In this document: in pieces, positions 20,297 to 29,631 of the stretch | Layout: the number at the start of each line of letters is the position of its first letter | Numbering within the stretch: the stretch's first letter is position 1 | Assembly: GCA_015296075.1 (NCBI GenBank) | Contig: DVDV01000133.1 | Location: forward strand, 1-55,598 | Direction: 5' to 3' | Length of the DNA: 55,598 bases | From: Leptolyngbyaceae cyanobacterium M33_DOE_097 | GTDB lineage: Bacteria; Cyanobacteriota; Cyanobacteriia; Leptolyngbyales; Leptolyngbyaceae | Position numbers and translations under genes: made by a program | The notes under the pieces: model-generated | What the model was told of the DNA's origin: nothing | Databases searched by the model: none | What the model saw: the letters and a program-made list of their open reading frames with translations, nothing else

Positions 20297-20456
20297 TCAT
20301 TTCTCAACATAGTTTACCGAGCAAACCGTTTGTCTGTGGAGCATTTCGGCTTCAATCAACCAACTTTCGCACAAACCTAAACAAACTCGCACCCGCTTCA
20401 GATTGTCAGAAAATTGCCTGTAGAATGAGTTGCTATCCTACACTTCTCAAATTTCT

Positions 20457-20816
20457 ATGACGGTCGAGCAAAAGGTTGACCAGGCCACTAGCAATATCGA
20501 AATCCTGATTGATCAGGTCGGAAGATTGACCGAAAGTATTGCCGAGATGCGATTTGCGATCGTGGAAGGCTTTGCTGAGACTCGCCGTGAAATGGCAGAA
20601 GGGTTCGCTGAGACTCGTCGTGAAATGGCAGAAGGCTTTGCTGAGACTCGTCGTGAGATTTCAGAAGGTTTTGCGGAAATGAGACAAGCCTCAAATGAAC
20701 GTTTAGCGCAATTAGAAGCTGTCGTTGACCGACAAGCGATCGTCGCTGAGCGGTTGGCTGCTACGGTTGAACGCCAAGCCCAATTGATGGAGCGGATGTT
20801 TAGCGATCGCCCTTAA
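20457..20816 (+). CDS. Coiled-coil protein with 11-residue repeats (119 aa)
   Basis: Hypothetical protein that is one long amphipathic helix. Residues about 37-76 contain an 11-residue unit, GFAETRREMAE, three times nearly perfect plus a partial fourth (GFAEMRQ). Eleven-residue periodicity suits a right-handed or hendecad coiled coil. Flanks (EQKVDQATSNIEILIDQVGRL; ERLAATVERQAQLMERMF) are also heptad-like. I chose the ATG at 20457; a TTG at 20430 would add nine residues. It is probably an oligomeric scaffold; no enzymatic motif is present. Confidence 0.75.
   Translation: MTVEQKVDQATSNIEILIDQVGRLTESIAEMRFAIVEGFAETRREMAEGFAETRREMAEGFAETRREISEGFAEMRQASNERLAQLEAVVDRQAIVAERLAATVERQAQLMERMFSDRP
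20565..20687 (+). repeat. 33-bp tandem repeat inside the coiled-coil gene
   Basis: Units at 20565-20597, 20598-20630 and 20631-20663 each encode EGFAETRREMA or a close variant, and a diverged partial unit follows at 20664-20687. Units 1 and 2 differ at only a few bases, which suggests recent slippage or recombination, so copy number could vary between strains. Confidence 0.9.
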
Positions 20817-23034: not shown

Positions 23035-24033
23035 TTACCCTTCGTGGATTGATCCATCAGCCATTGTTGTACCGCTAAGAGTGGCACCACTTAAATTGGC
23101 GCTGCTCGTTTCGGCATTCACAAGATTGGCATTCGTCAGGTTGGCAAAGCGCAGGTCAGCCCGACCTAAATAAGCTTCAACCAGCATCGCCTCTTCTAAC
23201 TCTGCCCAACGCAAATCCGCTCGACTTAAATCAGCCCGATTGAGTCTGGCCTGCTTCAGTTTTGCCCGCACTAAAATAGCTCGGCTTAACTTCGCGTCAG
23301 TGAGATTGGCGATCGAGAGATTCGCTTGAGTCAGGTTAGCTTCACTAAAGTCAGCCCGTTGTAGTTTACCATCAAACAAATCTGCACTTGTCAAGTCAGC
23401 CGATTCTAGGCGAGCATCTGTTAAGAATGCGCCTCGGAAGCTTGCACCAAGCAGGTTTGCGCTGTTTAAATTAGCTTCATGTAGATTCGCTTCTTGTAAA
23501 TTCGCTCCCCGCAAATCCGCTTTTGACAAATCAGCTCCAGATAAATTCGCGCCTCGCAAATCCGCATTGCGCAAGTTAGCGCCTCTTAAATCTGCCCCTT
23601 CATAAACCCGCCGCTCAAACCGCAAGTTTGCCCCGCGCAGGCACGCACCTTGCAAATTCGCTCCAGCTAATTTCACTTCGCGCAAGTCAGTGCTGATCAG
23701 ATTGGCATCCAATAGGTTTGCTAGAGATAAGTTGGCATAGCGCAAGTCAGCTCCATAGAGAACAGCTCCGTGCAGGTCAGCATCTTGCAAATTTGTGTGC
23801 AACAGGTCGGCTTGACTCAGGTTCGCACCACATAAACGGGCTTTTGTTAGGTTGGCATGGCTGAAGTTGGCCCGGTTGAGATACGAAAAGACGAAAAGAG
23901 CGCCTGATAAATCACATTCTTGGAAATCAACGCCGATTAGATCAGTACCCGAAAAATCAGTGCCAGCAAGGCTCTCACCCCGAAAGTTGGTTTCTCCAGC
24001 TTCATACCGCAGTAGTAAATCACTCAGCTCCAT
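23035..24033 (-). CDS. Pentapeptide-repeat protein
   Basis: A 332-residue protein made almost wholly of A(D/N)LxX pentapeptide repeats, from about residue 12 to 320, which fold into a right-handed quadrilateral beta-helix. A break occurs around LRFERRVYEGADLRG (about 138-152), which may bulge the solenoid. No signal peptide and no transmembrane helix, so cytosolic. Its ATG at 24033 lies inside the end of the cyclase gene (14-nt overlap), so the two are likely translationally coupled. Solenoids of this kind act as scaffolds, and some bind gyrase, but nothing here points to a specific partner. Confidence 0.93.
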   Translation of the reverse strand: MELSDLLLRYEAGETNFRGESLAGTDFSGTDLIGVDFQECDLSGALFVFSYLNRANFSHANLTKARLCGANLSQADLLHTNLQDADLHGAVLYGADLRYANLSLANLLDANLISTDLREVKLAGANLQGACLRGANLRFERRVYEGADLRGANLRNADLRGANLSGADLSKADLRGANLQEANLHEANLNSANLLGASFRGAFLTDARLESADLTSADLFDGKLQRADFSEANLTQANLSIANLTDAKLSRAILVRAKLKQARLNRADLSRADLRWAELEEAMLVEAYLGRADLRFANLTNANLVNAETSSANLSGATLSGTTMADGSIHEG

Positions 24034-26299
24034 TGTTTGCTACGCCTGGATCAGAAGGAGGATTTGAAGAAACAAGCCAATCAGAAGTTGCGATCGCCTC
24101 CGACACAGGCGGAACATCTGGCTGGGTTTTGCCTGACAGGTCGGCTACATCAGGATTACTGTAACGGTTTGCCAGTTGACACGTCATCTCGTCAAGCCCT
24201 TGTAGTGCCGTTGGTGTGCTTTCTGCCATACGCGTTTCGGAGTTGTCAACCGGGGTAATATCCGTATCCTCGACGAGGGGGGGCACTGTTACAGGAATGC
24301 TGCCATGCACGTAGAAAAACCGGAGAGACTTGATCAGGCGAGTTGCCGTGTGGACGTACTCATCTGGATTGGGCTGCTTTCTAGCGGCGCGATAGAGCAA
24401 ATCTTCTAAATCAGTATAGGAGCGGCACTGGTTTAGGGTTTCACGTAAAAGACCATCTAAATCAATCGCTTTTAGATTGAGCCAGTCTTGATAAGAGAAT
24501 GTGAATTCACCTCGCAGGGCAGAAAATAGCAGAATCTTGGCACAGAGAGGATTCGCATTTCGCATGATGTCGAGGCGCGCATCAAACAAGCTAAACAATG
24601 GCTCTGCGACAGGAGTTTGATGGCTGCCTGCGGGCTGAGTGGCGGACATTTCTGCCACCGAGGATTCTGCTGCTGGAGGGGGTGCCTCAGCTGGAGCCGC
24701 TGGTAGTTCGTAGCCAGGGTAGAGCGGTGTCATGTGGCGCAGAATGGTATGCGCGATCGCCCCATATTCTGCTGGTTTGCTCAAGGTTCTCACGACCGAC
24801 CCCAGAGCTTCTTCAAGCTGCTTACCCGCTGGGGCAATTTGGTAAAGTTGCCGCACTAAGCTCTCAGTATTGAGATTGTTAAGGGCTGAAGCATTGTTTT
24901 CCCAACGGCGATCGCATAGATAGAGCATCAGCTTTTTGATCCGCAGCAGGTTTTGCTCTTGCTCTAATGCCGTACCCACTTCTCGGCAAATCTGACTTGG
25001 ATCTGGCTCAACTGGGGCGCTTGCTGCTGGCTCTTGTGGGGGAAGCGCAGGCGATTGCATGGTATGACTCGCTGGAGCCTCTGCCTGAGAGTGATAGAGC
25101 GGATAAAATTGCTGCAAAATGGTGTTCGCAACCAACTGATACTCCGCCGACTTGCTCAACGTTTGAACGAAGCGATCTAGGGTCGTCTGCAACCGCTCGG
25201 CAGTCGGAAATAAGTGATGTGCCTCAGCCACCAGGGTCGTCATTGACACCGCATTGAGTTGATCGGGGTTGCTTTCCCATTTGTTGCGGCAAACGTAATA
25301 GCACAGCTTTTTGATCCGCGAGAGGTTACTCGATCGCTCGATTGTTTGAGCCACTCGACTATATAGGGTTTCGGCCTCTGGTGAAACCACGTGAGGCATT
25401 TCGCGATGCGCTGTTACCTGCGTTGTTGATCCATCCAGCTCAACAGGTGTAGAGGTTGCTGGGTAAAGCCGCCCAGCTTCTGCCAAAATCAAATTTGCGA
25501 TCGCCCCATACTCGGCTGGCTTGCTCAGCGTTTTAACGGCACTGTGGAGAAAGTTTTGTAATTGGTTAGGGTTGGGGGCTAATTTAACCAGATCTTGCAG
25601 CAACCCATGTAGGTCTAAGCTGTTCAGCGAATTTGTATCGCTTTCCCAGACATTTTTGCAGGCATAGTAAATTAGCTTGCGAATCCGGAGTTGATTCTTA
25701 TTGTTCTGGAGGTTTTCGACGACTAGGCCGAGTGAGTCTTGAGGCTCCTCTTCTGGATGCAGTAAAACTTTGTAAGCGGGGACAACTTCGTCAATATTCT
25801 TAAGCTTGCGTGGCCCCAGAAATTGGGTTGTAATTTGCAGCCCATTTTTAACGACGTCGTAAACCGTTTGTGAAATAATAATGCCACCCGGGTCAGCTTC
25901 AGCTTGCAGACGGGCCGCAATATTTACGCCATTGCCCATCACATCAGTGTCGGTGATAAACATATCGGCCAGATGCACACCAATTCGATGTTTCAAGGAA
26001 TCTCGTTCAGAGAGAACGGCCGTGGCTTCACCAATTTTTTCTTGAATCTCAAGCGCACATTTCACCGCCCGAATGGCGCTAATGAAGTACATCAGCAGCC
26101 CGTCACCCGTTGACTTTAAAACGCGGCCCTCGTACTTTTCACAGACCTTCTGCATCAGCTTCAGATCACGCCGGATCAAGTCTAGGGTGTGGTCTTCATC
26201 CCGCGACATTCTGGCACTAAACCCAACACAGTCGGTAAAGACAACTGTGGCAAGTGTGCGATGTCCTCTTAGCTCAGATGATTGGGTGTTTGTTTCCAT
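24020..26299 (-). CDS. Class III nucleotidyl cyclase with four helical repeats
   Basis: A 759-residue cytosolic signalling protein. Residues 12-180 form a class III adenylate/guanylate cyclase domain with the metal-binding aspartates in VFTDCVGFSARM (D23) and KSTGDGLLMYF (D66), and the GNGVNIAARLQ helix with the catalytic Asn and Arg region. Downstream, a ~75-residue helical module recurs at about 205-280, 328-402 and 453-528 with the core R-I-(R/K)-K-L-x-x-Y-x-C-x-x-x-W-E and T-L-S-K-x-A-E-Y; a fourth, diverged copy is at about 587-665 (RKQPNPDEYVH). Pro/Ala/Glu-rich linkers separate them. I know no named domain for the module. The gene overlaps the pentapeptide gene, so the pair is a likely operon. 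Confidence 0.88.
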   Translation of the reverse strand: METNTQSSELRGHRTLATVVFTDCVGFSARMSRDEDHTLDLIRRDLKLMQKVCEKYEGRVLKSTGDGLLMYFISAIRAVKCALEIQEKIGEATAVLSERDSLKHRIGVHLADMFITDTDVMGNGVNIAARLQAEADPGGIIISQTVYDVVKNGLQITTQFLGPRKLKNIDEVVPAYKVLLHPEEEPQDSLGLVVENLQNNKNQLRIRKLIYYACKNVWESDTNSLNSLDLHGLLQDLVKLAPNPNQLQNFLHSAVKTLSKPAEYGAIANLILAEAGRLYPATSTPVELDGSTTQVTAHREMPHVVSPEAETLYSRVAQTIERSSNLSRIKKLCYYVCRNKWESNPDQLNAVSMTTLVAEAHHLFPTAERLQTTLDRFVQTLSKSAEYQLVANTILQQFYPLYHSQAEAPASHTMQSPALPPQEPAASAPVEPDPSQICREVGTALEQEQNLLRIKKLMLYLCDRRWENNASALNNLNTESLVRQLYQIAPAGKQLEEALGSVVRTLSKPAEYGAIAHTILRHMTPLYPGYELPAAPAEAPPPAAESSVAEMSATQPAGSHQTPVAEPLFSLFDARLDIMRNANPLCAKILLFSALRGEFTFSYQDWLNLKAIDLDGLLRETLNQCRSYTDLEDLLYRAARKQPNPDEYVHTATRLIKSLRFFYVHGSIPVTVPPLVEDTDITPVDNSETRMAESTPTALQGLDEMTCQLANRYSNPDVADLSGKTQPDVPPVSEAIATSDWLVSSNPPSDPGVANNGAE

Positions 26300-28438: not shown

Positions 28439-29164
28439 TTAGCGAAGCCGGGTCGATTGCGAAGGTCGGTTTGGGCTTGTCGGCGAAGCTGAGGGGCGTC
28501 CGGGGTCAGTTGGGCTAGCAGGTGGATGGAGTTGCTGGCGGCCATTGCGAATCACCCGCAGCATCTCAGCTAATTGTGCTTCCATATCTCGCAAAACGCG
28601 ATCGGCATACTCATCGGCTCCTGCCTGGATCCCTTCGCACTCTAGCAAGGCCATGTGTTGCATGTCTTCTAATTCTTTTTGAGCCTGACGCCGCATTTGC
28701 TCGATCTCAGCGACCGTTTGTTGGCGCACAGCTTCGCATTCTTGCTGCACCTGCTGTCGCAGTTGTTGGGCTTGCATTTCAGCCTGACGTAAGATCCCCA
28801 TTTCATTGGTAATCTGAGCTGCCTGACGTTCTGCCGCCTCAATAATTTCCTGAGCGTATTGCTCAGCTTGCAGCAACAGCTCATCTCGGTGGTTTAGCAC
28901 CTCTTGGGCTTCACGAAATGCATCGGGTAGCCCAACGCGAACTAGGTCGAGCTGCCCCAACAGCTGCTCCTCATCAACCAGCGTCCAGCGAGTGATGATC
29001 AGGCGCGGGCTATCGAGAATCATTTCCTCTAGCCGATTGAGTTCGCGCTGAATGTCTATGTTTCGTGGTCGGGGGGAGTCTCCCCGATGCGATCCGTTAC
29101 TGTCGGATCCTGGCCGGGAGAATCCGCGATCAGAGCTGATACTGGCTGAATCTTCGCGTAGCAT
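28439..29164 (-). CDS. Coiled-coil protein overlapping coaD (241 aa)
   Basis: A long-helix protein: a disordered Ser/Arg-rich lead (1-35), then [33 protein letters not shown] (about 37-70), a Gln/Glu/Ala-rich coiled coil (about 90-210) with [22 protein letters not shown], and a Pro/Ser tail. DivIVA-like or ATP-synthase-b-like proteins look similar; I see no decisive motif. The start is uncertain: ATG 29164 lies 109 nt inside coaD in another frame, and a start nearer residue 37 would have to use a non-ATG codon or M48. Proximity to coaD suggests a transcript shared with it. Confidence 0.7.
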
Positions 29165-29631
29165 CGGTAGATATCCAGAGCAACATGAGAAGGGACAAGA
29201 TGATCAACGGTACCACCAAAGCGGGCAATCTCTTTAACAAGACTACTGCTTATGAAGCCGTATTCCGTTGAGGTAGCCAAAAACACCGTTTCAACCTGAT
29301 CTGAGAGTGTTTTGTTTGTGTGTGCCATCTGTAGCTCTAACTCAAAATCAGATAGCACCCTTAAACCTCTCAGTAAGATTTTTGCTTGACGCATTCTGGC
29401 GTAGTTAACGGTTAAGCCATCAAAACTGTCAACTTCAATGTTGGATAGATGCAAGGTTGAAATGCGGATTTGCTCAAGGCGCTCCGCCACGGTGAATAAT
29501 GGCTTTTTATTAGGGTTACGCAGCACCGCTACGACAACCTGGTCAAATAGACGACAACCACGCTCGATAACATCAAGATGCCCCAGAGTGATTGGGTCAA
29601 AGCTGCCAGGGTAAATCGCAAGCACACACAC
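29056..29631 (-). CDS. coaD: Phosphopantetheine adenylyltransferase CoaD
   Basis: Transfers AMP to 4'-phosphopantetheine in coenzyme A synthesis. Motifs: [21 protein letters not shown] with the HxGH-type [27 protein letters not shown] and the [14 protein letters not shown] pattern. The 191 residues exceed the usual ~160: the last ~30 ([27 protein letters not shown]) look disordered and are encoded in the stretch that overlaps the next gene. The extension may be a by-product of that overlap. Confidence 0.95.

Follow-up and report, generated by a model that had tools for sequence, protein, structure and literature searches.

HetL of Nostoc PCC 7120, which is accompanied there by 31 other pentapeptide-repeat genes, binds HetR via charged faces, and the substitution D151A impairs binding; by the count of that paper, only two pentapeptide proteins have a demonstrated complex, HetL-HetR being the second such complex known (PMC7476756). 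In cyanobacteria, SpkB-type kinases combine a Ser/Thr kinase with pentapeptide repeats (PMC2176072). EAD1-10 and VMAP-M domains are small and helical, and the signalling enzymes to which they are attached are interchangeable (PMC7159879); class III cyclases such as 3mr7, Ma1120 and CyaC contain a catalytic domain with all six canonical residues. These are the respects in which the locus described here resembles the last three groups, while its likeness to HetL lies in a right-handed beta-solenoid of A(D/N)LXX repeats. Here, the window, that is, the whole stretch of 55,598 nucleotides analysed, contains the following pair of genes.

23035-24033, minus strand: pentapeptide-repeat gene, 332 aa (Pfam PF00805, 4.8e-78), one-to-one partner of the module gene across cyanobacteria
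24020-26299, minus strand: cyclase-module gene, an open reading frame of 759 aa

The stop of the 759-aa frame and the start of the 332-aa frame overlap by 14 nt, as the first-pass annotation had claimed and as the ORF coordinates bear out. The cyclase-module gene is neighboured by aroB, the pentapeptide gene and a transketolase-like gene. The four-module layout described below, with a downstream pentapeptide gene, is also found in relatives L008 (64% identity, best segment) and L009 (47%), and relatives at 47-66% identity have an identical four-module layout, which excludes chance. No Rfam match was obtained in a scan of the window at 20-30 kb, and promoters in a promoter/terminator scan did not rise above the level of shuffled sequence. 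Elsewhere in the window, a short ORF at 20430-20816 (plus strand) consists of three tandem, near-identical 11-residue units (EGFAETRREMA) and is probably a coiled coil. Moreover, a DivIVA-like coiled-coil gene with no Pfam match adjoins coaD at 28439-29631 (minus strand); a gene of the same kind (L106:8212-9337), together with coaD, directly adjoins the module-pentapeptide pair in L106. The 759-aa protein is divided as follows.

25760-26263, minus strand: class III nucleotidyl cyclase catalytic domain (aa 13-180), from PF00211, PDB matches and six catalytic residues
25460-25723, minus strand: canonical module 1 (aa 193-280), HMM, confident in the full-length model
25091-25363, minus strand: canonical module 2 (aa 313-403), six predicted helices, HMM, AlphaFold pLDDT 94.3 with a 12-row alignment
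24716-24985, minus strand: canonical module 3 (aa 439-528), HMM and full-length model
24308-24586, minus strand: terminal module (aa 572-664), conserved LFDxRLxIMxxxNPLxAKILLFS, terminal-class HMM
24173-24193, minus strand: tail motif DEMTCQL (aa 703-709), within the low-confidence tail of aa 665-759

The cyclase domain that had been claimed earlier is confirmed by Pfam PF00211 (Guanylate_cyc, 2.5e-10, over the cut-off, residues 17-163) and by PDB entries 3mr7 (4.6e-25) and 4wp9. The canonical catalytic residues D23, K62, D66, D119, N126 and R130 are all present, comprising the two metal Asp, the base-selecting pair and the transition-state Asn and Arg. They are kept in 33 of 34 aligned rows, L129 being the exception among cyclase-bearing relatives. 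From the K/D base-selecting pair, the enzyme is predicted to be an adenylyl cyclase. PADLOC models of PycC also match the domain, weakly (2.7e-9). A Pycsar reading was rejected, since a Pycsar system couples a PycC-type cyclase to a PycTM or PycTIR effector, whereas no such effector gene lies beside this cyclase, where aroB, the pentapeptide gene and the transketolase-like gene are found instead.

The remainder of the protein is built from a module of about 90 residues, present in four copies according to the HMM. The cores RIRKL, RIKKL, RIKKL and AKILL start at residues 205, 328, 453 and 587, giving spacings of 123, 125 and 134, in agreement with the four modules and the spacing of about 123-134 residues noted previously. 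The structure prediction that had been proposed as a check was made from twelve module copies taken from three proteins, and returned a 95-residue model with six helices, a mean pLDDT of 94.3 and a pTM of 0.85, that is, a confidently predicted six-helix fold. All four modules are again helical when the full-length protein is modelled; there, the linkers and the last ~95 residues are of low confidence, and the cyclase part came out poorly, the input being limited to three sequences. The module is an unnamed domain family, absent from the models of Pfam and NCBIfam. No Pfam cut-off was reached in hmmscan by the module copies, nor by module-only proteins of other lineages, and there was no match in NCBIfam. 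Among PDB sequences no family match was found, the single low E-value being a 31-residue match to a designed helical repeat protein, and Foldseek returned no PDB fold below E = 1 for the module model, its highest-probability match, the NLRP3 PYD (pyrin domain), being not significant (TM 0.39, probability 0.16). A profile match to a known family, which would have counted against the first-pass annotation, was not seen in these searches. Across genomes, 216 distinct modules were collected.

EAD1 and VMAP-M1 were considered as the family of the module and rejected (hhalign probabilities 2.3% and 0.4%, against 99.8% for a positive control), and EAD2-EAD10 and bDLD gave no Pfam match to the module at the level of hmmscan. 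These values bear on the idea of a conflict or defence system, in which the modules would be effector-associated domains on the EAD principle or Death-like adaptors, or the cyclase Pycsar-like. A repeated small helical domain with exchangeable enzymes does resemble EAD architecture (PMC7159879), and both the PycC matches and the weak pyrin fold point the same way. This idea is nevertheless very improbable, given the hhalign and pyrin scores above. Furthermore, none of the neighbours checked was recognised as a STAND, vWA-MoxR-type ternary, caspase or membrane effector gene, and the pair is near-universal and mostly single-copy, unlike patchy defence islands. In Nostoc-like genomes, one neighbour is an AAA-vWA gene with a match to Mg-chelatase subunit D.

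The comparison of the four modules shows that the canonical and terminal classes are homologous (hhalign 99.8%). The first-pass annotation had counted three clear copies and one diverged copy; it was right that four homologous copies exist, but the fourth, judged by its sequence and its own HMM, is a separate and strongly conserved terminal class, not merely a diverged one. With class HMMs, module proteins show the same order: an enzyme may stand at the front, followed by one to three canonical modules, then a single terminal module and finally a tail. Searched with the separate class HMMs, every pentapeptide-paired protein examined has the terminal module, except one broken by a frameshift. 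The only intact proteins that lack it are L117 and L118 of one genus (g53), and the same genus is also without the pentapeptide partner gene. Their joint loss, a single event in one lineage, suggests that it is the terminal module which would work with the partner.

Of the 194 cyanobacterial genomes of the class, 145 match the module profile (E <= 1e-6) and 142 the pentapeptide protein (E <= 1e-60), the latter mostly once per genome. Both genes are present in 141, the module only in 4 (G046, G071, G097, where the one listed match is a 59-residue open frame, and G103), the pentapeptide only in 1 (G154) and neither in 48; the small-genome family f2 is without both. In a phylum-wide sample the module was found in the same class only, with none outside. 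Viral contigs contained no module, and neither did plasmid records, in which a kinase-fused query matched kinases only. Of 57 module loci examined, which are not a random sample because some were picked as odd, 51 have the pentapeptide gene on the same strand at a distance of no more than 400 nt, and in nearly all cases it is the downstream gene; in two genomes (G091 and G157) the genes of the pair are located apart. Adjacency is thus conserved across cyanobacteria, and the scattered adjacency that would have refuted the first-pass reading was not seen. When 19 loci from 19 families were compared pairwise, the pair was present in all, and flanking homologues occurred in only 25 of 171 locus pairs; by our reading, most of the 25 are antisense frames inside the pentapeptide gene itself. 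That the two genes stay linked in changing surroundings suggests that their co-inheritance or co-expression is under selection.

Such a distribution could also be expected of a housekeeping pair, that is, structural or assembly factors acting for example in the envelope, division or the photosynthetic membrane, with output enzymes as late feedback add-ons. The pair is near-universal in oxygenic cyanobacteria and was not found outside the class, and it lies near coaD and a DivIVA-like gene in both the window and L106. The outer neighbourhood, however, is otherwise unconserved, and since several lineages with complete genomes are without the pair, it is not essential everywhere. We regard this explanation as unlikely.

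The enzyme at the front of the module protein is exchangeable. No recognised enzyme domain occurs in the module proteins of f24, f25, f32, f18, f19, f31, f5, f37, f34, f26 and other families; a cyclase is carried by most members of f1 examined and by f13, f6, f7, f10 and f17; and in f23, L096, L110 and L111 have a Hanks Ser/Thr kinase (Pfam Pkinase), the kinase-module genes of L110 and L111 being followed by the pentapeptide gene. In L129 (5039-6760) the N-terminus is cyclase-like with all six catalytic positions changed and is undetected by Pfam, and the pentapeptide partner is kept. When labels are mapped on a tree built from 55 pentapeptide partners, that of the cyclase changes about 8 times, at least 3 of these being forced by well-supported branches, and that of the kinase once; the no-enzyme label of L082 there merely reflects its broken cyclase-module gene (G300 contig C1, about 1.628 Mb), which a frameshift or a sequencing error has split into two frames. 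Moreover, cyclase-kinase fusions without modules exist at L103:5944-8034, L105:5785-7842 and L108:7273-9333, so that every pairing among cyclase, kinase and module is represented. The cyclase of these fusions is 57-63% identical to that of the window, and their end is formed by a duplicated domain whose core is RCIGPMA and which differs from the helical module.

Since the enzyme may be a cyclase, a Ser/Thr kinase or missing, at least three versions exist, and the description of a cyclase with sensor and scaffold fits one branch only. Of the earlier proposal that a cyclase, a sensor or binding module and a scaffold are made together, the module-pentapeptide linkage is conserved, and the cyclase is just one of these versions; the conserved unit appears to be the module protein plus the pentapeptide protein, with the cyclase outside the core. 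The same evidence weighs on a mainly cyclic-nucleotide system, in which the modules would sense a ligand and switch the cyclase, the pentapeptide rod would be a scaffold, and cyclase-free forms would be decayed remnants. It would account for the cyclase form in many families and for the retention of the six catalytic residues in all cyclase-bearing relatives examined except L129. Yet many families are cyclase-free while modules and partner stay strongly conserved, and in f23 a kinase stands in place of the cyclase; we consider such a system quite improbable.

The partner has 10 stretches of A(D/N)LXX repeats. Over 55 partners, residues H88, D109, D116, R118, C131, R133, R138, E140 and D158 are near-invariant beyond what the repeat demands, and most of them cluster.

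23614-23709, minus strand: near-invariant non-repeat residues D109, D116, R118, C131, R133, R138 and E140 (55 partners)

A conserved interruption of the repeat, RFERRVYEG, follows residue 139, beside the invariant residues, and the patch D109-E140 is a candidate partner-binding site. The protein scores 220.4 bits against the NCBIfam HetL equivalog NF047416, below the cut-off of 260. Two partner matches (G043:C4:11883-12872 and G068:C1:114516-115505) contain an in-frame TGA. Behind the module gene of L126 (9406-11519) comes a second pentapeptide protein, which is more divergent (38%), and the orthologous partner (48%) is located ~1.7 kb upstream.

A conserved short motif in the C-terminal tail was not mentioned in the first-pass annotation. 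The tail itself (aa 665-759) is probably disordered according to the model. Of 70 distinct proteins, 27 have the pattern acidic-x-x-T-C-Q-[LFI] in their tail, whereas shuffled tails would be expected to give 0.3; its carriers include forms with no enzyme, with a cyclase and with a kinase. The pattern is absent from many lineages, for example the Nostoc-like forms examined. In 221,589 residues of other ORFs it did not occur, and in the genome of the window the scanned codon pattern is in frame only in the 759-aa protein, a privacy which rules out a general genome-wide ligand. Kinases and FHA domains are known to prefer acidic residues ahead of the Thr and a hydrophobic one at +3. The motif would fit these preferences and is, as a hypothesis, most likely a docking or phospho-threonine site.

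Taken together, we judge the odds to be even that these genes form a cyanobacteria-specific adaptor/scaffold pair with exchangeable output enzymes, acting as a two-part signalling adaptor. The module protein, with one to three canonical six-helix modules, a terminal module and a disordered tail, would be made together with the pentapeptide beta-solenoid; the terminal module would dock on the conserved charged patch of the solenoid, canonical modules may bind other copies or client proteins, and assembly or client binding would set the activity of the attached output enzyme. In the window this enzyme would be a homodimeric adenylyl cyclase; elsewhere its place is taken by a Hanks kinase or, presumably, by an enzyme recruited in trans. 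Physical contact, the sensed signal, the direction of control, the cAMP output and the role of the tail motif are what we infer, and linkage and co-loss of the two genes are no proof of contact. The signalling assembly suggested earlier is plausible with a constant module-pentapeptide part. We lean slightly towards a broader statement, namely that an undescribed domain family, with its own terminal subtype and private tail motif, and its dedicated pentapeptide partner form a near-universal two-gene signalling core of oxygenic cyanobacteria, into which cyclase and Ser/Thr kinase outputs have been plugged, exchanged and lost. If true, an ancient signalling device is exposed, missed so far because the module is modelled by neither Pfam nor NCBIfam, and an unnamed domain joins Ser/Thr-kinase and cAMP networks. 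For about three quarters of the sampled cyanobacterial genomes, one pentapeptide protein gains a strongly predicted dedicated partner, and a testable docking module, the terminal copy, can be named with candidate surface residues.

In a literature search limited to open-licence papers, no description of the module-pentapeptide pair was found. The class III cyclases 3mr7, Ma1120 and CyaC are all without the helical module, whereas in the window protein the cyclase is an optional front end. The cyclase-kinase fusions above differ from it in having neither the helical module nor a pentapeptide neighbour. SpkB-type kinases are single polypeptides with no helical module reported, in contrast to the two genes found here. 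EAD and VMAP-M domains are associated with vWA-MoxR or STAND, and EAD1 and VMAP-M1 have no profile similarity to the module, which is tandem, pentapeptide-paired and has a distinct terminal copy. HetL-HetR offers by analogy a precedent for a pentapeptide protein binding a regulator (PMC7476756); compared with the shorter HetL, the partner, at ~330 aa, has its own invariant residues and repeat interruption and a fixed partner gene.
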